Shown piece by piece: positions 12,264 through 24,655 of a stretch of 33,100 nucleotides of DNA. Positions within the stretch are counted from its first letter, which is position 1. The number at the start of each line of letters is the position of its first letter. The stretch spans positions 1 to 33,100 of the forward strand of contig JAPZAN010000120.1 of the NCBI GenBank assembly GCA_027460605.1, in the 5' to 3' direction. The translations under genes and the position numbers were made by a program. Under the pieces are notes generated by a model, which did not search any database, was not told the DNA's origin, and worked only from the letters and a program-made list of their open reading frames with translations. Origin of the DNA: Candidatus Methanoperedens sp. GTDB taxonomy: Archaea > Halobacteriota > Methanosarcinia > Methanosarcinales > Methanoperedenaceae.

Positions 12264-13511
12264 TTACAATCCCTTTTTCTTCTTCAAATAATATCCTGCC
12301 ACTACCGCTCCAACAACCACAAAAATACCCATCACTGCCAGAGGTGAAGTTGAACGTGTTTCCGGATTCACGGTTATCGGGACTGTCCGCCTGAAAATCA
12401 CCACGTTATTCTTTTCATCTATGCCCCTCAGTTCAACATCCAGCAGGTACTTCTTGGCTGCGGCATTTTTATCGACCGTCACTTTCAATACTGCATCCCC
12501 GTTTTCACCGGGTTCAAGCTTTCCCACGAAATCTGATTTTTCATCGAATTCAAAAGGCTGGGATGCGTCTTTGAATACGCGTAATGAAACGGATTCAGCC
12601 TTTTCATTGCCAGTGTTGCCGACATTTATCCTGAATTCGGCTTTGTCCCCCGGTATTAATTTTTCAGGAGTGGTTGTTACTGATTCCACTATGAGATAAG
12701 GCGCCGGCTTTATCGGGATATTGAGAGTGAGGTTTTTCATCCTGTACATATTTGCCTCATCGTTTTCATCCTTATACGTAATCTCAAGTTTTGCGCTGTA
12801 ATCTCCTTCCTTTAAGTTCTCATCCGTATCCACATAAAAATCTGCTTTTTTACTGCCGCCAGTTTCAATTATACCAAGACTGTCCTCATCAGAATAACTG
12901 TATGTCGGCTTGAATCCCGCTGGCACTATGAGTTTAACCTTAACATTCTCTGCATTGCCTTTTCCTATATTGTCGATATTCACAGACAGCGTCGCTTCTT
13001 TTGTATCGGCTATCAATTTTTCGGGAGATGTGACAAGTGCCCCGACTACGAAATCAGCCCGCTTCGGGTCGATGTAAACAGGGAAATCCTTCTTTGTCCA
13101 CCCTTCTCCCGTATCCCAGCTCAGGGTTACGTTGTAAGTCCCCTTGATAGCATTATCTGCTACCCTGAGTTTGTAGTGCAGCACATAGAAAATCTGGTTA
13201 TCGTTCGTGCCTGCGGATGCGCCTAAATCCTTATCCGGGGAATCCCCGGCTTCGAATAAAAAGGGGTATCCCACATCAAGATGGAACTTTAAATTCTCTA
13301 CGGTACTTGACATGGTGTTTACAACCTGCCATCTCAGGTCCACATCTTTCCCGGCATCAGCCGGGTCGGGGTCCTGGCTCATGAAATTTGCCTGTATCCT
13401 GTTTCCCTGCACTCCCGTAAGCGGAGCGCCCAGAACGACAGTGGCAGCCGTTGATAAAAGTACTATCAATACGCCCAGTATTGAAATTTGTGTTAATAAT
13501 CTGTTCTTCAT
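12264..13511 (-). CDS. COG1361-like secreted/membrane-anchored protein with CARDB/NEW3-type repeats
   Basis: N-terminal signal-like segment, repeated 'NIGKGNAENVKVKL' / 'NTGNEKAESVSLRV' modules, C-terminal TM VMGIFVVVGAVVAGYYLKKKKGL. Confidence 0.82.
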   Translation of the reverse strand: MKNRLLTQISILGVLIVLLSTAATVVLGAPLTGVQGNRIQANFMSQDPDPADAGKDVDLRWQVVNTMSSTVENLKFHLDVGYPFLFEAGDSPDKDLGASAGTNDNQIFYVLHYKLRVADNAIKGTYNVTLSWDTGEGWTKKDFPVYIDPKRADFVVGALVTSPEKLIADTKEATLSVNIDNIGKGNAENVKVKLIVPAGFKPTYSYSDEDSLGIIETGGSKKADFYVDTDENLKEGDYSAKLEITYKDENDEANMYRMKNLTLNIPIKPAPYLIVESVTTTPEKLIPGDKAEFRINVGNTGNEKAESVSLRVFKDASQPFEFDEKSDFVGKLEPGENGDAVLKVTVDKNAAAKKYLLDVELRGIDEKNNVVIFRRTVPITVNPETRSTSPLAVMGIFVVVGAVVAGYYLKKKKGL

Positions 13512-14665
13512 GTTCTTACCTCAAATCTGTTCATTATTTTTTTATATGTATCTTTTATATTCATAGTGTCAATTATAATTACAAGAGCAGGGACAATGGT
13601 TATAGCCGCAACCATGCTTGCAGCGACACCATAGCTCATTATTGTCCCCATATCGCCGAGGAAGGTCAATTTCCCAAGGGACATTGCCTGGAATCCTATC
13701 AGGGCAGCCAGCGTCGTTGTGGACATGGGGATTATAACGTTGTTCAGGGTCACTGCCATGGCATCCCCGGGAACAAGTTTGTTTTCCAGTTCAAACCTGT
13801 ACCTCGTGACAACCTGGATTCCGAAGTCTATGCCTATGCCCATTATCATGGACAAAACACCGGAAGTCTGTGAACTCAATCCCATTCCGATTAACCCGAC
13901 ATAGCCCATTGCCCAGAGCGTCCCGAAAATTATCGTGGTCATGGGCGTTAATCCGTATTTTACGGAACGGAAAAGAACAAGTATTATTATCAGGATTCCG
14001 ATAAGGGAATACAGCGACGTCTTTGCCATATCCGGTCCGATGCTTTTTTCCATGACCGTACTTTCCATGGCGTTGCCTCCAAGAGCTACCGTAACTCCAG
14101 GCGGCTTCGGGACTTCCATGATTATCTTGTTAAGCTCGACTTCAAGCGCTTTCAGGTCAGCGTCATCGGTTGTCTGGATTTTAACCAGGGCAAGCGTATA
14201 GTCCTTGCTGACATAATTCCCAAGAAGCCCGTTTTTGTCAGTAAGTGCCGAAATTTCCCTTACGGATTGGGGCAGCCGCCCGTTGTTGATCGTTTTCAAA
14301 ACCGAAGCCGCACTTGAGACATCAATCACATTTTCGGTATGCTGCGCAAGCTCCGAAAGCTGGTCCATATACCGTATGATTTTTGGGTCGCGAATGTCCC
14401 GCGTCTCGTCAGAACCCTTATACTGAGGGTCTAATTCGACTGCAAAGAATACTGCATTGGTGCTTCCGAACTCGTTTTCAATGCTGTTCAGCGTGCCTAT
14501 GGATTCAACGTCATTGGGAAGCATTGATTTTATATCTGATTTTTTTGTTTCAATAGTGCCTGCCATCTGGATGGCAAAAAATGAAACAACAAGCATGATA
14601 ACCAGCACTGTAACGGGGTGCCTGGTGACAAATGCTGAATATTTTTCAAGGAGCTCTTTAATCAT
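13508..14665 (-). CDS. RND-superfamily (HAE3/MMPL-like) transporter, half-size, second half
   Basis: 385 aa; N-terminal TM, soluble loop, cluster of C-terminal TMs with GIGIDFGIQVVTRYRFE; own RBS GGGAGGTAATAATG; ATGA overlap with downstream gene. Confidence 0.85.
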   Translation of the reverse strand: MIKELLEKYSAFVTRHPVTVLVIMLVVSFFAIQMAGTIETKKSDIKSMLPNDVESIGTLNSIENEFGSTNAVFFAVELDPQYKGSDETRDIRDPKIIRYMDQLSELAQHTENVIDVSSAASVLKTINNGRLPQSVREISALTDKNGLLGNYVSKDYTLALVKIQTTDDADLKALEVELNKIIMEVPKPPGVTVALGGNAMESTVMEKSIGPDMAKTSLYSLIGILIIILVLFRSVKYGLTPMTTIIFGTLWAMGYVGLIGMGLSSQTSGVLSMIMGIGIDFGIQVVTRYRFELENKLVPGDAMAVTLNNVIIPMSTTTLAALIGFQAMSLGKLTFLGDMGTIMSYGVAASMVAAITIVPALVIIIDTMNIKDTYKKIMNRFEVRT

Positions 14666-14667
14666 TA

Positions 14668-15849
14668 TTACCTCCCTCTCCGGACATGTTCTTCTTTTTT
14701 GGCTGTAAGCTTCGCAAGTTTCCTATGGGTATTCCAGTACTCAAAATCCTCTTCAAGCAGTATGAACACGGGATTGACAATGAGCGCAGCCAGAAGGCAA
14801 TAAGCTATACCCAGCGCCAGCGTCTGACCCAGGTGCTGTATAAGCGGAACGGATGCGAATGACAGCACACCGAAACCCACAATCGTTGTCGTCCCTGACC
14901 CGATAACGGCTGTGCCTATTGAATATACCGTGGTCTTCATCGAATCAAGCTGGCTATAATTTTTAACCCTTTCTTCATTGTACCTGCTTAGCACGAATAC
15001 GCCGTATTCCACACCCAGCCCCAGAAGCATTGAGCTAAGAGCCACCGTGGCAACCGACAGGGGAATCCCCAGCCATCCAAGGGTACCCATCGTCCAGATT
15101 AATCCTATCGACAGCGGGGCGAATATCAAAAATGCCTGTGTATATGAACGCTGCATGACGAAAAGAAGAAGCAAAATGATGATTGCGGCAACCGCAAGAG
15201 TAAAAACAGCATCCCGTTTGAGTAAATCAAAAATAGTCATCCTGAGAATGGGCTGCCCTGTTATGCCGAACTTTACCCCCGGCGGCTTCGGGGTGTAATC
15301 TATTTTCTCCTGTGCAAGTATATTGAACTTCTGTATCTGGTCTTCTCCTGAGCCTATATCTGCTGCAACATACATGAGCGCCATTTTATAATTCCGGCTG
15401 AAAAATGCATCCGCCACGGAGGTATTGCGCAGGGTTTGCGTTATTTCCTCATCAGAATATGCATTCTTGCCACTGAAAAAACTTGCAGGAGATGTTACGC
15501 TCGTAACAGTCGTTTCGCCCCTCAGTTCCTTATCGAGGAAAATCAGGGATTGTATCACCCTCGGGTCCCGGATATCCCTCACAGCTTCTTTTGAATCAAC
15601 AGACTCGTCAATTTGCACGGCAATGACCACAGTATCCTCGCCCCCGAATTTACCCGATACCTTGTCATTGAGCGCAAATATGGGAAGTTCCTTGGGCATC
15701 TCTTTCCTGAAATCCGAGTTAATGGTCAAATCCTTAAGCCCGATACCCAGAATAATAGTAAGAATTATAACTATGACTGCGAGTATTTTTGTATGCTTTT
15801 TCTGTATTTCAGCAAGTTTCATCAAATTCGTTTCAAGAAAGGTTGCCAT
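14668..15849 (-). CDS. RND-superfamily (HAE3/MMPL-like) transporter, half-size, first half
   Basis: 393 aa; LGLGVEYGVFVLSRYNEER motif; same architecture as the neighbouring half. Confidence 0.85.
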   Translation of the reverse strand: MATFLETNLMKLAEIQKKHTKILAVIVIILTIILGIGLKDLTINSDFRKEMPKELPIFALNDKVSGKFGGEDTVVIAVQIDESVDSKEAVRDIRDPRVIQSLIFLDKELRGETTVTSVTSPASFFSGKNAYSDEEITQTLRNTSVADAFFSRNYKMALMYVAADIGSGEDQIQKFNILAQEKIDYTPKPPGVKFGITGQPILRMTIFDLLKRDAVFTLAVAAIIILLLLFVMQRSYTQAFLIFAPLSIGLIWTMGTLGWLGIPLSVATVALSSMLLGLGVEYGVFVLSRYNEERVKNYSQLDSMKTTVYSIGTAVIGSGTTTIVGFGVLSFASVPLIQHLGQTLALGIAYCLLAALIVNPVFILLEEDFEYWNTHRKLAKLTAKKEEHVRRGR

Positions 15850-17769: not shown

Positions 17770-18018
17770 ATGAAAGCGGAAAAATTGCTTGAACGCATCA
17801 TTCTTGATCCCAATGTTATGACTGGAAAACCTGTAATCAGAGGAACAAGACTTACAGTGCAGTTTATCCTTGGATTATTAGCGCATGGCGCTTCTATGGA
17901 GGAAATCCTTGAAGAATATAAGGGGTTGACCCGGGAAGATATAAAAGCATGTTTGCTATTTGCAACAGAATCCCTTGAAGACACCACATTTATGCCTTTG
18001 ACTGCAGAGGCTTGTTAG
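17770..18018 (+). CDS. DUF433 antitoxin
   Basis: ERIILDPNVMTGKPVIRGTRLTVQFILGLLAHGASMEEILEEYKGLTREDIKACLLFA. Confidence 0.92.
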   Translation: MKAEKLLERIILDPNVMTGKPVIRGTRLTVQFILGLLAHGASMEEILEEYKGLTREDIKACLLFATESLEDTTFMPLTAEAC

Positions 18019-18372
18019 ATGCGGTTCCTTGTGGATGAATGCACAGGACCTGCGGTTGCACAGTGGTTGCGCCGGCAAAATCATGATGTGATTTCTGTAT
18101 TTGACGAAATCAGGGGAGCGGATGATAGAGAGGTTATCCAGAAAGCCTGCGAGGAAAATCGCATACTAATCACAAATGACAAAGACTTTGGTGAGCTTGT
18201 TTTTCGAGAGAAAAAGCCACATAAAGGTGTGATACTTTTGCGCCTTGAAGATGAACGGGCAGCAAACAAAATAGCTGTACTGAAACGCTTGCTCGAAAAA
18301 TATGAAAATTCCCTCGATGGATTTTTCATTGTTGTTACAGAAACTACTGTCAGAATAGCGGGAAAGACGTAA
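18019..18372 (+). CDS. DUF5615 PIN-like toxin
   Basis: MRFLVDECTGPAVAQWLRRQNHDVISVFDEIRGADDREVIQKACEENRILITNDKDFGELVF; directly abuts the DUF433 gene. Confidence 0.92.
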   Translation: MRFLVDECTGPAVAQWLRRQNHDVISVFDEIRGADDREVIQKACEENRILITNDKDFGELVFREKKPHKGVILLRLEDERAANKIAVLKRLLEKYENSLDGFFIVVTETTVRIAGKT

Positions 18373-18378
18373 ATCGGG

Positions 18379-18849
18379 TTATAATTTGCCTTTTCTCCGT
18401 TTTTTCATAGGAGAGCCGCATACAGGGCACTCATCCCCCTCTGGGAACCTCCGCTTGCACCCGATGCACTGCTTTTCCCAGATGAGAACATCCTTTATCT
18501 TCCTCTGACCCGCAGGCATCACCTTGATACCAAGCTGTATCGCGGTATTCTGCACCGCGAAATCGTCCGTGACAAGAATAGCATCCTCGCGCCCTGAATA
18601 CTCAAGCGCTTTTGCGAGGATATCGACGTCCGTTGCTGAAAGCTCTTCGCTGTCCTTTGTGACTCCCGCTTTTTTCCTGACCTCTTTTTTGAAGCTCTCA
18701 AGCGGTGGCTCGACTCTCACATTCATCAATTCCATTGTCGTGCGGGCGTTCTCATCCCTGAGTTCTTCGACTACGGAGGGCGTTGTTACAATGCTGCCTT
18801 CGAGTCGTTTCCGGATGATGAAAAGGGAGGAGTCGGCAATGTATATCAT
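18379..18849 (-). CDS. nob1: NOB1-like ribosome-maturation endonuclease (PIN domain plus zinc ribbon)
   Basis: MIYIADSSLFI..., LSATDVDILAKALEY, ILVTDDFAVQNTA, C-terminal CIGCKRRFPEGDECPVCG. Confidence 0.9.
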   Translation of the reverse strand: MIYIADSSLFIIRKRLEGSIVTTPSVVEELRDENARTTMELMNVRVEPPLESFKKEVRKKAGVTKDSEELSATDVDILAKALEYSGREDAILVTDDFAVQNTAIQLGIKVMPAGQRKIKDVLIWEKQCIGCKRRFPEGDECPVCGSPMKKRRKGKL

Positions 18850-18928
18850 TTTCAGAAGAGATACTTAAGTTATCTTAGATAAATATATCCTGTCACTTGA
18901 ATCTTAAATTTTAAGAGATCGTCAACCA

Positions 18929-20128
18929 TTAAGTATTCTTTCGCAGAATCTCAGTTTCAAGTTGTTTAGGTAATCGGGGGATACCTATCCTCCCGATGCA
19001 AGATGAGAATCTTTGTTGAATCTTGGTGATATGAGGCGGCAATAGTCTCCACTTCCGATAGCCTTCGATCTCATCGAATTTTTTCACCTCTAAATCTTTA
19101 AAATTAAATACAATAACATCATTTACATTATCGGCCAAAAGAAACAAGAATGCTTCATATATATGTTCTTTAAAGCCAATCTTACTAGAGTACCTGTCTT
19201 CTTTCTTCAGATCATTACCAGATTTTTTACTACCTTTGATTAGATAGACGTTTCCATCACATCTTCCCTCAATAGTATCGCACTCTGGCCTAATGTTTAG
19301 ATAATAAGTACTATCTATTTCGAAAATATCACCAGGTTTTATACCATATAACCCCTTATCTAGAAACATTGTTCTTCGTAAAACATCCCTGAGTTCTTGT
19401 AAATCAGGATCAATTGCTATCTTCAGCTTTTCTACTTCTAGTTCGGGCATTACTGTTATTGACGAAACTAGCCTAAATAGGGTCTCGTTTATTCCCGATA
19501 CCGGATCTTCCCCTTCGTCTTTAAAACTACACCATAGTATCCACGGCCATCCCTTACTTCTATTATATAAATCCCAAAATACCGTATTTTTGGCCTTCAA
19601 CATCTCTCTTTGCCACAACTTCAATACATATATTGGCGGGTTACTTTCTATCCACGCGCCAATATCCTCAAAGAGTTTATCGCCTTCAAGAAGTTCTTTC
19701 TTGTTTCTTACATAGATAAAGTTCCTTCCGTTCTCGAAATATAAACCTTCTTCTTTGAGCTTTGGAATGATTTGATCATTGATATCTCTTGTACTTTCCT
19801 GAGTAAATATAAAAACTGGAGCAAAGCATATATCTTTTAATCTTTTTATGAACTCAATAATCTTTTGATGAATCTCCTCTCTAATTTCAGCGCCGGGAGA
19901 TACCCCCTCCTCAGTCGCTTCGATGGGTTCGAATATATTCCAATCAAGTATTATGAAACTGGACATTGTAAAATTAGAAAGAAAACTCTCAGCCAAATCG
20001 AGCGACTCTATTTCACAAGTAGGAAAACCTTTCTCTTTGATTTTAATAATGATTTTATTGATATCCTCCTCCACTCCTATACCATTATCGATAATCGTCG
20101 CTATCCCTTCGCATAGGCTTATATCCAT
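18929..20128 (-). CDS. Divergent receiver-like protein with C-terminal domain of unknown function
   Basis: 399 aa; SFIILDWNIFE (beta3-like with Asp) and APVFIFTQEST (beta4-like with Thr/Ser) resemble a CheY fold; TAATG overlap with upstream GHKL gene. Confidence 0.65.
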   Translation of the reverse strand: MDISLCEGIATIIDNGIGVEEDINKIIIKIKEKGFPTCEIESLDLAESFLSNFTMSSFIILDWNIFEPIEATEEGVSPGAEIREEIHQKIIEFIKRLKDICFAPVFIFTQESTRDINDQIIPKLKEEGLYFENGRNFIYVRNKKELLEGDKLFEDIGAWIESNPPIYVLKLWQREMLKAKNTVFWDLYNRSKGWPWILWCSFKDEGEDPVSGINETLFRLVSSITVMPELEVEKLKIAIDPDLQELRDVLRRTMFLDKGLYGIKPGDIFEIDSTYYLNIRPECDTIEGRCDGNVYLIKGSKKSGNDLKKEDRYSSKIGFKEHIYEAFLFLLADNVNDVIVFNFKDLEVKKFDEIEGYRKWRLLPPHITKIQQRFSSCIGRIGIPRLPKQLETEILRKNT

Positions 20129-22365
20129 TACTCCTCTCCCTCCTCGTTATTCTCTCCAAAACTTACAAGAAAATTTGCTCCATCTAAAACCGTTTTATCC
20201 TTATCAATTATGTAGTTAATCTCGTAATCGTATCTCCATAGGAGTTGTCGAGCGATATATAGTCCTAAGCCGCGACCCTTAATTCCCTTAGTTGAGAAGA
20301 ATGGTTCAAAGATGAACGGAAGATCACTTTCCCTAACGCCAAGGCCATTATCAGCAAAAACGACTTCGCATTTTGTCCCATCAATTAAAATTTTTATTTC
20401 CTTATTTTCCTTTGTACTCGTAGTTAACCAATAAACTGCATTGTCCATAAGATTTATGAAAACTTGGAGTATTATTCCTTCGGAACATTTAACAACGATA
20501 GGCGGTCCTTTTTCATCCACGATTACTTTTATATTTCTTCTCTCAATAGGAACACTATAGTACAATTTGACTTTATCAATAATATCACTAATTCTTAAAT
20601 CCTTACTACGCCGTCTTGAGGAACGGAATAGTGGTTGGATACCATGAAGTTGATCCTCAATATATGCAAATTGACCTCGTAATTTGTCCAAATCACCTCG
20701 CAATTTATCATGGTCAAAATTATCTTTTTCAGCCATTTTTATCATCATGTTCAAAGTTTCAGCAGCGCGGGTCATCATTATCATCAAGTCGTGGGATGCC
20801 GCGTCTACCGCCATTCCAACTCCTGCAAGATCTTCGACAACTTCGACACGCTCTGAAAATACCTTCTTCTCTTCATGATAATCTTTGATTAATCTGTTAA
20901 GAGTGCTAATACCTTCAGAATCCTTCTGTTTATTCAGATGGTTCTCAATAACCGATAAGTCCTTCTCAACAACTGATTCTTTGATATACAATCCTTTTTC
21001 ACGTATCACAGTTTTTAATTTCTTTAACTCTTTATTCAAATACCCCAAAATTCCGAGAAGAAGTACTCTAATGTCTTGATAAGCATTGCCAATGTCCATT
21101 AGTCCCTCTCTACTCGATTTGTCTCTCAGGTCTGGATTGTCTTTGCTAGTTATACCCACATATCCAACCACTTGATCATTGCTAAGATAACTCCCGGCTT
21201 TCACCAACCCTCTTGCAATGTCTAGTCCCAACCAATCATCGCTTGGATCCCCATAAGGATAAACTCTAATGCCATCTCTATAAACATACGTTCGATGGCT
21301 TCTAATGAGTTCTCTATCATCATTAGATAATGGCGATGCTAATGAAGCCTTTCTTTTAAATTCAAAAACATAAAACTTAAATTTGAAAGATCCACATTCA
21401 GGTCTTCTTTTTAGCCCTCCCCCTTTATCATAAAAACGTTTCCTAATGTCTCTATCATCTGACAAATCGTCTAATAAAGACATTTCTCCTTTTTTTTCAT
21501 TCAATATAAATTTACAACGCCCTTCTCTATCGACCTCGCCATCAATTTTGATATCTGCTATATTTAATAGATTAGTCAATTTATCTTTCTCTTCAGCCAA
21601 GAAAACATACTCACCATTCAAAAGAATATCTACAACAAACTCGGTGCTACCGAATGGTGATACCAACCTCAGGCAATCTTCAAAGATATCACGTATCTTT
21701 TCATCTGTCCATTTTCCTTTTAAATTCGAAACTCTTATTAATGTCCCATGTGGTTGTTTCTCGATTACACTACCTTGAACTACAATAGTTTGCTGTTTTA
21801 TCCTTTCAGGAGAAGTTCGGATCTCGTAATCATATTTAACGTCCTCAATAAAGATTGGTTTATTGGATAAATCCCCTTTCTTTGCAAGAATTTCATCATC
21901 AAAGACGGACAAATCACATTTTAAGTATATTTCACTAGCTTCTAGCTGTTTTGCTCTAGTAAATATCTCTACTGCATATCCAAGCTTGAAGGCGGAATAC
22001 CTTCCGATACCCTTCTCGCCCTGCATTATCCTACCTTTTTCTGTACGACCTTCGCCCATTTTCTTTTTGATATATTTATAAGGCGCTGCAGGATTCATCC
22101 AAGAATCTTTAATGGTATCAAAAGTCATACCAATTCCGTCATCCTCGATTTCAATGACAGAGTTTTCTCCAATTTCCAAACTTGTACCTGATTTGTTAAA
22201 ATTTATGAATCTAATCTGTACCCAAGAAGCATCAGCATCGTATGAATTCTTAATAAGCTCTAAAAGGGCAATCTTTTCGTTTTTGATAAGTTGCTCACCT
22301 AACATGGTTATAAGCCGCCCATATGGTCTGGGGCTAATCGTTCCCTTTTCTGGTATCATCATCAA
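20128..22365 (-). CDS. Dual-GHKL ATPase: N-terminal HSP90/MORC-like ATPase plus C-terminal histidine-kinase-like HATPase
   Basis: N-term ALLELIKNSYDADASWVQIRF...VIEIEDDGIGMTFDTIKDSWM...GEKGIGRYSAFKLG; C-term VFINLMDNAVYWL...VVFADNGLGVRESDLPFIFEPFFSTKGIKGRGLGLYIARQLL; H-box-like ASHDLMIMM. Confidence 0.88.
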   Translation of the reverse strand: MMMIPEKGTISPRPYGRLITMLGEQLIKNEKIALLELIKNSYDADASWVQIRFINFNKSGTSLEIGENSVIEIEDDGIGMTFDTIKDSWMNPAAPYKYIKKKMGEGRTEKGRIMQGEKGIGRYSAFKLGYAVEIFTRAKQLEASEIYLKCDLSVFDDEILAKKGDLSNKPIFIEDVKYDYEIRTSPERIKQQTIVVQGSVIEKQPHGTLIRVSNLKGKWTDEKIRDIFEDCLRLVSPFGSTEFVVDILLNGEYVFLAEEKDKLTNLLNIADIKIDGEVDREGRCKFILNEKKGEMSLLDDLSDDRDIRKRFYDKGGGLKRRPECGSFKFKFYVFEFKRKASLASPLSNDDRELIRSHRTYVYRDGIRVYPYGDPSDDWLGLDIARGLVKAGSYLSNDQVVGYVGITSKDNPDLRDKSSREGLMDIGNAYQDIRVLLLGILGYLNKELKKLKTVIREKGLYIKESVVEKDLSVIENHLNKQKDSEGISTLNRLIKDYHEEKKVFSERVEVVEDLAGVGMAVDAASHDLMIMMTRAAETLNMMIKMAEKDNFDHDKLRGDLDKLRGQFAYIEDQLHGIQPLFRSSRRRSKDLRISDIIDKVKLYYSVPIERRNIKVIVDEKGPPIVVKCSEGIILQVFINLMDNAVYWLTTSTKENKEIKILIDGTKCEVVFADNGLGVRESDLPFIFEPFFSTKGIKGRGLGLYIARQLLWRYDYEINYIIDKDKTVLDGANFLVSFGENNEEGEE

Positions 22366-22405
22366 GTCTCCAAAATTTTGAATTGGAACATTAATATCAT
22401 ATTTT

Positions 22406-23809
22406 TTATCCTTTTAACCCTATTACAATATATTCTATTGGATAAGCTTCTGAATTAGCGTCGTGATTATTTGCAAATTTGCCTGTTTTCTCATCCCTTT
22501 TTTGAGGTAGTATTTTTAACGGAATTTCTCTTTTTATTATTTTATCAAGTTTAAAGCCAGATTGTTGTAAACTCTCAGCAAAAACTTCCGCATTCAATAT
22601 ATCTATACCTCTCAGTTTCGTATCACCTATAACATAACAGCATCTACTGCCATGTTTTAAAATTCTGAAGCTTTCATCAAATACTTCTTGCATATCAATG
22701 AAAAACGCTTCAATTTCTTTTGCCATTTTCTTACTTTTCTTGGTCATTTTGACAACAATGTCTTTGCCAATCTTGCTTTTTAATCTTTTATGTTCGTATT
22801 TTTTGTACGATGTTCCGATAAACTCCCCTCTGTATTCCTTTAAATCATCAGCAAACTCAAGCCAAATCGTTGATAGTTGATGCAAGTCTGCATATTCGTA
22901 GCTGGTAACGAAAGGACTCGAACTTACAATTAAATCTATAGAATTCTCCGATACAGGCTGTTTTCTGGCATCACCAACTTTGATATTTAGATATTTCGTA
23001 AGGTTTTCCTTTATATTTGCAGGAACTTCGTCATAAAAAATATCATTACCTCTCTGCATTTTCTTTAAATGGTTTCGAAATGCTTCATATGGCTTTACAG
23101 GTTTCTTCTTCAAATTTTTTGTTGGTTTTGTTCTTGTTGGTTTTGTACTCCCTTGTAGCCAGATAGAACATCTCTTTAAAATGTGACTAAAGGCAACTAG
23201 AAAAAAATCCCTGATGGTTTCATCTTCCTCATCATAAATAACTCTTAATATCTTTCCAAGTTCATTTTTGTTTTTCTCAGTAAACCAGTAATTAATTCGG
23301 TCAATATGTTTTCGAGGAACTAATGGCCAAATCCTTTCATCAAATGGTGCTTTTTGATTTTCATCTAAAAATTTTAACTTTGATAAGAGCTGTCTTATTT
23401 TTCTATCAAGATACTCTGGATTTATTGGTGTCGATTTCACCTTGGTAATCAAATGCGCTACTTTATTAATATCTGTTCCACTCGCCTTAAAGCCTCTTGA
23501 GATTGCAGTAACCATCGTAGTTCCGCATCCCATAAATGGATCATTTATATAAGCATCTTTATAAAAAATATACTCGTCAATCAGTTTTTCAACTAATTGT
23601 GGAATAAACTTAGCAGGGTAGCGATGGTAATCATGTGTCCACTTCCCCGTTTCTGATTTTTTAAAATCTTCAAACGACCATTCTTTGTCTATCTCTTTTA
23701 TGTTAAACAGATTGATTAATTCATCTGGTGATGCTATTGTTTGTTGAAATTGCCAAGTTTTAACACTCGTCACATATTCAATTGTTGCTTCGCTTAACAA
23801 ATCACCCAT
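22406..23809 (-). CDS. DNA methyltransferase (amino-MTase type)
   Basis: THDYHRYPAKFIPQLVEKLI...YINDPFMGCGTTMVTAISRGFKASGTDIN (motif X/I), IDLIVSSSPFVTSYEYADLHQLSTIWLEF (motif IV-like). Confidence 0.85.
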   Translation of the reverse strand: MGDLLSEATIEYVTSVKTWQFQQTIASPDELINLFNIKEIDKEWSFEDFKKSETGKWTHDYHRYPAKFIPQLVEKLIDEYIFYKDAYINDPFMGCGTTMVTAISRGFKASGTDINKVAHLITKVKSTPINPEYLDRKIRQLLSKLKFLDENQKAPFDERIWPLVPRKHIDRINYWFTEKNKNELGKILRVIYDEEDETIRDFFLVAFSHILKRCSIWLQGSTKPTRTKPTKNLKKKPVKPYEAFRNHLKKMQRGNDIFYDEVPANIKENLTKYLNIKVGDARKQPVSENSIDLIVSSSPFVTSYEYADLHQLSTIWLEFADDLKEYRGEFIGTSYKKYEHKRLKSKIGKDIVVKMTKKSKKMAKEIEAFFIDMQEVFDESFRILKHGSRCCYVIGDTKLRGIDILNAEVFAESLQQSGFKLDKIIKREIPLKILPQKRDEKTGKFANNHDANSEAYPIEYIVIGLKG

Positions 23810-23935: not shown

Positions 23936-23970
23936 TATCTGCGTTTATCTGTGTTCATCTGCGGTTTATT
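23936..23970 (+). repeat. Dispersed intergenic repeat, CTGCGTTTATCTGTGTTCATCTGCGGTTTATT type
   Basis: tatctgcgtttatctgtgttcatctgcggtttatt; overlaps the stop of the minus-strand bioY (23969-23971). Confidence 0.75.
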
Positions 23971-24655
23971 ATTTCGCCCTCGAATCAATCTCATTCCCAT
24001 ACGCAGCCCTCGGCACTACTGCCGTGGCTATTGCTGATACGATTAGCGCCTTATACAAATCAACCGCTATGAAAGGCAAAACCCCGAGCTGGATTGCTTT
24101 CTCTGCATTCACGCCAAGCACAAATGCCAGTTGAACAGCCCCGAACAGGTAAACCATCACAATTCCGAGCAGCATTATACTAAACATGCCTGCAAAGCTG
24201 CGTGATTTGACATACATATCTGTGAACCACCCGATAATAAGCGATGCAACAATGAACCCGATGATGTAACCCCCTGTCACGCCTGCGAGAACTTCCATGC
24301 CGGCTGTTCCGCCTGCAAACCATGGCACGCCAAGAACGCCTATAACAGCATAGAATACCTGGCTCATTCCGCCGTACCATTTCCCGAGAATCACGCCAGA
24401 GAGAAGAACCGCGAAAACCTGTCCCGTTACAGGCACGGGCGTGTAGGGAAGATAGAACCGGAGCTGGGCAACCAGTCCGGTCAAACAAGCAAAGCCAAGC
24501 GCCAGAGCCATTTTGTTCAGGAATGTTGATTCAAACCGCCATTTAAAAAAATTGTATCTGGCAGATTCATATTTTTCAAATACGTTTTTTAGTTCGCTTC
24601 CAAATTCTGACATAAATTCACCGATTGTAAACTTTTTATTTCTTAAAGTAGACAA
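23969..24655 (-). CDS. bioY: BioY-family biotin transporter S component
   Basis: AQLRFYLPYTPVPVTGQVFAVLLSGVILGKWYGGMSQVFYAVIGVLGVPWFAGGTAGMEVLAGVTGGYIIGF. Confidence 0.92.
   Translation of the reverse strand: MSTLRNKKFTIGEFMSEFGSELKNVFEKYESARYNFFKWRFESTFLNKMALALGFACLTGLVAQLRFYLPYTPVPVTGQVFAVLLSGVILGKWYGGMSQVFYAVIGVLGVPWFAGGTAGMEVLAGVTGGYIIGFIVASLIIGWFTDMYVKSRSFAGMFSIMLLGIVMVYLFGAVQLAFVLGVNAEKAIQLGVLPFIAVDLYKALIVSAIATAVVPRAAYGNEIDSRAK

Follow-up and report, generated by a model that had tools for sequence, protein, structure and literature searches.

Three genes at positions 18929-23809 of the window (the whole 33,100-nucleotide stretch of Candidatus Methanoperedens DNA analysed here) form a horizontally acquired cassette encoding a DNA methyltransferase, a histidine-kinase-like protein with two GHKL ATPase domains, and a receiver protein whose C-terminal domain is predicted to adopt the fold of the MazF and CcdB toxins. 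The cassette is not of a wholly undescribed kind, but is a divergent clade of the HEF_HK/Response_reg_2-type kinase/receiver pair; what is new here is the MazF-like fold of the modelled receiver C-terminus, which provides a candidate effector, perhaps for the known family as well. We give an even chance to the reading that the cassette is a self-contained defence unit resembling a restriction-modification (R-M) system, in which the kinase and a receiver-toxin would take the restriction role through a phosphorelay.

Layout of the cassette and its insertion between nob1 and bioY

Three minus-strand open reading frames fill this interval exactly as first placed in the preliminary description, and the tight, same-strand operon that it reported was found in every detail. 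The methyltransferase gene (22406-23809, minus strand, 467 amino acids), which matches PF01555 and PADLOC MTase_II and is kept in 12/12 clade loci, is separated by a 40-nt gap from the gene for the dual-GHKL ATPase or histidine-kinase-like protein (20128-22365, minus strand, 745 amino acids; PF13589 and PF02518 both above cut-off), the start codon of which is a TTG or one of the ATGs just downstream of it. The kinase stop codon overlaps the start of the third gene as TAATG at 20126-20130; this gene (18929-20128, minus strand, 399 amino acids) encodes the receiver with its MazF-fold C-terminus, as judged from a receiver profile search, alignment and an AF2 model.

The neighbourhood survey of homologues showed the linkage to be conserved: the order methyltransferase-kinase-receiver, on one strand, recurs in all 12 complete clade loci, so that it is not a matter of chance, and stop/start overlaps between the genes occur in most of them, although some of the longer overlaps hinge on the choice of start codon. 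All nine loci found with the receiver as seed also have the kinase and the methyltransferase. A search of virus contigs seeded with the methyltransferase gave, among the 11 strongest relatives, five with kinase and receiver, five without either (two of these near a contig end) and one, L135, with a different GHKL protein in their place. The kinase and receiver are therefore bound to this methyltransferase, whereas the methyltransferase family also occurs alone; of the question whether the three genes occur independently, raised in the preliminary description, the answer is no for the kinase and receiver and yes for the methyltransferase. Virus-contig methyltransferases at L131, L132, L133, L134 and L141, 34-39% identical to that of the window, have no kinase or receiver in the available stretch, which at L132 stops right after the methyltransferase gene. 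At L135 (6016-9742), a same-family methyltransferase is followed by a single 844-residue GHKL protein that is partly similar to the BbrUII/HgiDII enzymes and carries, as read by eye, a PD-(D/E)xK-like C-terminal motif (PDGKAD...FDAK); the kinase and receiver thus seem to fill the restriction slot.

In the window the cassette lies between nob1 (18379-18849) and bioY (23969-24655). These two genes are only 33-36 nt apart in three genomes of the same genus (L125, L128 and L130), and in the window the interval is filled by the cassette of approximately 5.1 kb, an insert with approximate ends at 18865 and 23970 and a GC content of 35% (0.35), lower than the 0.443 and 0.461 of its two flanks. The cassette is absent from the same-genus relatives and is a foreign insert, acquired horizontally with its three genes as one block. 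No boundary repeat or target-site duplication was recognised at the insert ends. Since no further gene was inserted alongside, the three genes are probably the entire working unit. Its neighbours in the window are housekeeping genes and one toxin-antitoxin-like pair, and do not constitute a defence island; the pair, DUF433 with a PIN-like DUF5615 (17770-18372), lies beyond nob1 from the cassette.

The methyltransferase, the dual-GHKL kinase and the receiver

The calls of methyltransferase, dual GHKL ATPase and receiver-like protein made in the preliminary description all held, the first two through Pfam families and the third through its fold and active-site residues. The first gene product matches PF01555 (E 8.8e-12) and, over residues 41-439, the generic type II methyltransferase profile MTase_II of PADLOC (E 2e-55), and its sequence is that of an N4-cytosine/N6-adenine type enzyme with motif I ahead of motif IV. 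Motif I, the SAM site, reads DPFMGCGT (residues 90-97; 23519-23542, minus strand), and its D90, F92, G94 and G96 are invariant in 12/12 loci. Motif IV (residues 297-300; 22910-22921, minus strand) reads SSPF in the window copy and SPPY in the other 11 loci, so that, as regards modification activity, the window methyltransferase combines a full family match with a substitution by which it may be weakened or altered.

The kinase has the architecture HATPase_c_3 + DHp + HATPase_c. Its N-terminal Hsp90/MORC-like GHKL ATPase domain (residues 32-140; 21946-22272, minus strand) matches PF13589 (E 2.5e-16) as well as HtpG, and residues E36, N40, D75, G77, G79, G116, K118, G119 and G121 are invariant in 13/13 kinases. 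The C-terminal histidine-kinase ATPase, with its N, G1, F and G2 boxes (residues 632-718; 20212-20472, minus strand), matches PF02518 (E 1e-17), with N638, D641, N642, D672, G674, G676, F686, G697, G699 and G701 likewise invariant in 13/13. Between the two, residues 516-585 give a weak match to PF19191 (HEF_HK; E 0.019, 15.9 bits against a cut-off of 24.1), a match found in one of the five clade kinases checked. Within it lies the putative phospho-acceptor His525 (20791-20793, minus strand), part of the SHDLM H-box on the DHp helix, and H525 and D526 are invariant in all 13 kinases.

The receiver of the window matches neither PF00072 nor PF19192, its sole Pfam match being to OKR_DC_1_N, another receiver-like fold (E 2.6e-6). 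Its REC domain (residues 1-160; 19649-20128, minus strand) is instead recognised from the AF2 model, which has a (beta/alpha)5 fold, from Foldseek matches to REC domains (probability 0.99-1.0) and from the conservation of D14, D62, S/T109 and K143 in 12/12 loci, the putative phospho-acceptor being Asp62 (19943-19945, minus strand). The hallmarks of two-component systems, namely the DHp histidine, the N, G1, F and G2 boxes and the receiver Asp/Thr/Lys, are thus present and invariant across the clade and, because the relay and ATP-site residues do not vary, the phosphorelay is likely to be active.

In the full-length receiver model, built from seven sequences (pLDDT 68), the (beta/alpha)5 receiver leads through a helical linker into a beta-barrel at the C-terminus, and with this tail Foldseek matched Escherichia coli MazF (probability 0.99) and a phage PemK/MazF (probability 0.97). 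The C-terminal domain, here called CD (residues 257-390; 18959-19360, minus strand), is predicted to be a small beta-barrel with a C-terminal helix. A second model of the tail alone was obtained from the clade member L022, using 10 sequences that included relatives of the classical type (pLDDT 87, pTM 0.82). CcdB and toxins of the MazF/MoxT family make up all of its best 50 PDB matches, with probabilities mostly of 0.97-1.00, target-normalised TM scores of 0.52-0.71 and Foldseek E values of 7.5e-3 to 0.1, and we therefore predict an SH3-like-barrel fold of the MazF/CcdB type. Kinship with MazF was also sought at the sequence level and was not supported: two alignments of CD against archaeal MazF/PemK gave an hhalign probability below 1%, the MazF alignment comprising only 14 archaeal rows and one PemK, with one row (L078) doubtful; Pfam, at E values up to 5, gave no match to PF02452; and a PDB profile search with CD found nothing. 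Judged by strand order, the conserved CD residues (G-D, N-x-R, C-D and R-G) occupy the end of strand 2 rather than the positions of the two MazF catalytic residues, Arg on beta 2 and Thr on beta 3; as the catalytic residues of MazF are apparently missing, RNase activity is not implied, and a toxin is a reasonable reading of the modelled domain.

The CD domain is, on sequence comparison, recognisable in classical HEF_HK-type receivers as well. The clade receiver profile matches the C-terminus of a Campylobacter receiver (E 2.3e-9), and the G-D...C-D motif recurs in other classical receivers. The profile also matches (E 5e-6) a protein of the same genus as the window (L016:4020-6788, G025), in which a kinase continues in frame into the back half of a receiver and CD. 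This was considered as a Rosetta-stone fusion and rejected: the protein has neither the G2 box nor the front half of the receiver, which holds the phospho-Asp, so that it looks like the product of an internal deletion and was not used as evidence.

Relation to known systems

An HATPase_c_3 + HEF_HK + HATPase_c kinase beside a Response_reg_2 receiver was described by Bellieny-Rabelo 2021 (PMC8011034) in 644 bacterial regions, with 91.6% linkage and with R-M genes enriched, mainly C5 methyltransferases and Vsr. The HATPase_c_3 + DHp + HATPase_c architecture is group 1 of that study, with 174 of 222 proteins, and the C-terminal domain of the Response_reg_2 receivers was left unassigned (PMC8011034). 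The claim of an 'undescribed' system in the preliminary description was thus overstated and must be narrowed, a kinase/receiver pair beside R-M genes being already on record. The two share the kinase architecture, an adjoining receiver gene with an unexplained C-terminus, a strong methyltransferase link and the lack of need for a dedicated restriction enzyme; the link to methyltransferase and R-M genes expected of HEF_HK systems is seen here with the methyltransferase as first gene in all 12 complete loci. However, the described systems are bacterial, mostly with a C5-cytosine methyltransferase and often Vsr, whereas the window clade has a fixed N4/N6 methyltransferase in first place and includes archaea. 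It also lies outside PF19192 (0/5 clade receivers checked) and under the PF19191 cut-off, with a kinase identity to the classical type of approximately 26-30%. Despite the absence of a PF19192 match, the fold, the active-site residues and the CD domain, as matched in Campylobacter, argue that the receiver is kin to Response_reg_2.

A link has been drawn between the family and the paraMORCs described in Iyer 2008 (PMC2292703), where MORC/paraMORC GHKL ATPases were placed in R-M operons. With paraMORC and the BbrUII/HgiDII enzymes (PMC2292703; NF050001) the kinase has in common an N-terminal Hsp90/MutL-like GHKL ATPase adjoining a DNA methyltransferase, but the match is confined to the ATPase domain, and the window protein runs on into a histidine kinase and not a nuclease; NF050001 scores 52.7 bits over residues 20-147, against a cut-off of 550 bits, and falls short of the full-length criterion. 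PADLOC-DB 2.0, a comparison proposed earlier, returned no named defence system, giving just the generic MTase_II match and a partial REase_II match to the kinase GHKL domain. No restriction endonuclease was recognised by Pfam, PADLOC or NCBIfam among the three genes or their immediate neighbours, in agreement with the preliminary description. With the MazF/PemK/CcdB toxins the receiver C-terminus shares a predicted fold but no detected sequence similarity, and it is fused to a receiver rather than paired with an antitoxin. In the two-component phage defence Detocs a kinase relays to receiver-effector fusions, as is proposed for the cassette, but its kinase is different, its effector is a nucleoside phosphorylase and it has no methyltransferase.

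Kinases 38-42% identical to that of the window are found at L015 (G091), from a different Halobacteriota genome belonging to the same order, at L005 (Lysobacter ruishenii), L011 (an Allorhizobium conjugative plasmid) and L012 (a human faecal phage record), and on several virus contigs. The receiver profile search added the loci L067 (G275) and L074 (G858) and matched in 3/394 Halobacteriota and 2/399 Pseudomonadota genomes; the 0/399 in Bacillota, from a run without a positive control, shows little. In a tree of 50 proteins, 13 kinases form a monophyletic clade with 100/100 support, most of the added members coming from virus or phage contigs. Outside it fall classical HEF_HK loci with C5 methyltransferases, such as those of Campylobacter and Burkholderia plasmids (L013 and L014), and L016-L018, from the same genus or family as the window. 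At L017 and L018 (G033 and G008; same family/genus) the order is Vsr, C5 methyltransferase, dual-GHKL kinase, stand-alone receiver and a 208-residue gene; a caspase-like reading of the last (His-Gly...SCSCG, by eye) found no support in Pfam or PDB searches and was rejected. The L015 cassette adjoins hsdR, hsdS, hsdM (hsdS and hsdM being read by eye), a HerA-like ATPase and another methyltransferase, and other clade loci adjoin integrases or recombinases or sit on a plasmid. The defence-type context proposed earlier thus stood, in the conserved linkage, the horizontal transfer and the position of L015 inside a type I R-M/HerA island.

A possible defence function and its alternatives

In the defence reading, the methyltransferase would mark the cell's own DNA, while the Hsp90/MORC-like ATPase would clamp or sense unmarked DNA, or another sign of invasion. 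A conformational change of the ATPase would then trigger autophosphorylation of His525, from which the phosphate would move to Asp62 of the receiver, freeing the MazF-fold domain to halt infection by attacking either nucleic acid or some essential enzyme; kinase and receiver would stand in for the restriction endonuclease. The sensing of unmethylated DNA, the phosphotransfer and the toxicity are inferred; the reading as a whole draws on the invariant relay and GHKL residues, the MazF/CcdB fold matches of CD, the constant gene order, the completeness of the receiver-found loci and the well-supported kinase clade, together with the empty nob1-bioY site, the low GC, the defence neighbours at L015, the mobile-element and plasmid settings and the swap at L135. 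Against this reading, the modelled MazF match is one of fold, without sequence support, the SSPF-bearing methyltransferase may be weak, the window cassette stands alone among housekeeping genes, and most of the added clade members come from virus or phage contigs. The interpretation in the preliminary description is supported in part; the nob1/bioY insertion, the MazF-like fold and the SSPF motif were absent from it.

SH3-like barrels can also be binding domains, which counts towards a regulatory two-component system controlling DNA modification or neighbouring R-M genes, with CD as a nucleic-acid- or protein-binding output and not a toxin. Such a role was proposed for HEF_HK/Response_reg_2 by its discoverers (PMC8011034); however, the cassette travels and inserts without any other R-M gene, no clade member has a DNA-binding Pfam domain and the CD fold matches specifically toxins, and we consider regulation unlikely. 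Equally improbable is direct cutting of DNA in the manner of a type II R-M system, in which the GHKL protein would remodel DNA like MutL, MORC or HgiDII, the CD barrel would be a DNase, and phosphorylation would be lost or secondary. The resemblance of the GHKL domain to BbrUII/HgiDII and the nuclease-like C-terminus at L135 speak for it, as does a further methyltransferase: asymmetric restriction sites need a second one, and an N4/N6 enzyme lies divergently, head-to-head with the cassette, in four of the 12 loci (L005:3075-4268, L011:3334-4524, L024:1031-2215 and L074:13459-14700). Yet phosphorelay residues that are invariant in all members would be unexpected had the relay been lost, and CD has no recognised nuclease motif. 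That the window copy is a decaying passenger, inserted but no longer functional, would fit its aberrant motif IV and its absence from same-genus relatives, but none of the three reading frames is truncated and the key residues of kinase and receiver are all intact, which makes decay very improbable.

Returning to defence, we advance more tentatively, at somewhat below an even chance, that the cassette represents a new restriction-like class of defence, where a histidine kinase of the Hsp90/MORC type, aware of methylation, would free a receiver-tethered MazF-fold toxin by phosphotransfer; if so, some of the bacterial HEF_HK/Response_reg_2 loci would owe their output to this effector domain too. 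For that family, with more than 600 bacterial loci and an output unexplained since 2021, the predicted CD fold offers a concrete, testable effector candidate, and it would link two-component signalling to the self-marking of DNA and to ATPases of the MORC type. The window clade extends the family into Halobacteriota archaea, and its fixed N4/N6 methyltransferase and minimal three-gene insert make it a clear unit for reconstitution.

In the host genome, methyl-coenzyme M reductase alpha is present as two pieces, and the relatives of this genome behave as an archaeal order, with some 30 species in one genus, which points to a Methanoperedens-like archaeon. Elsewhere in the window, positions 12264-15849 hold three consecutive minus-strand open reading frames, of which the two fully translated ones resemble, by eye, MMPL/RND-type membrane transporters.
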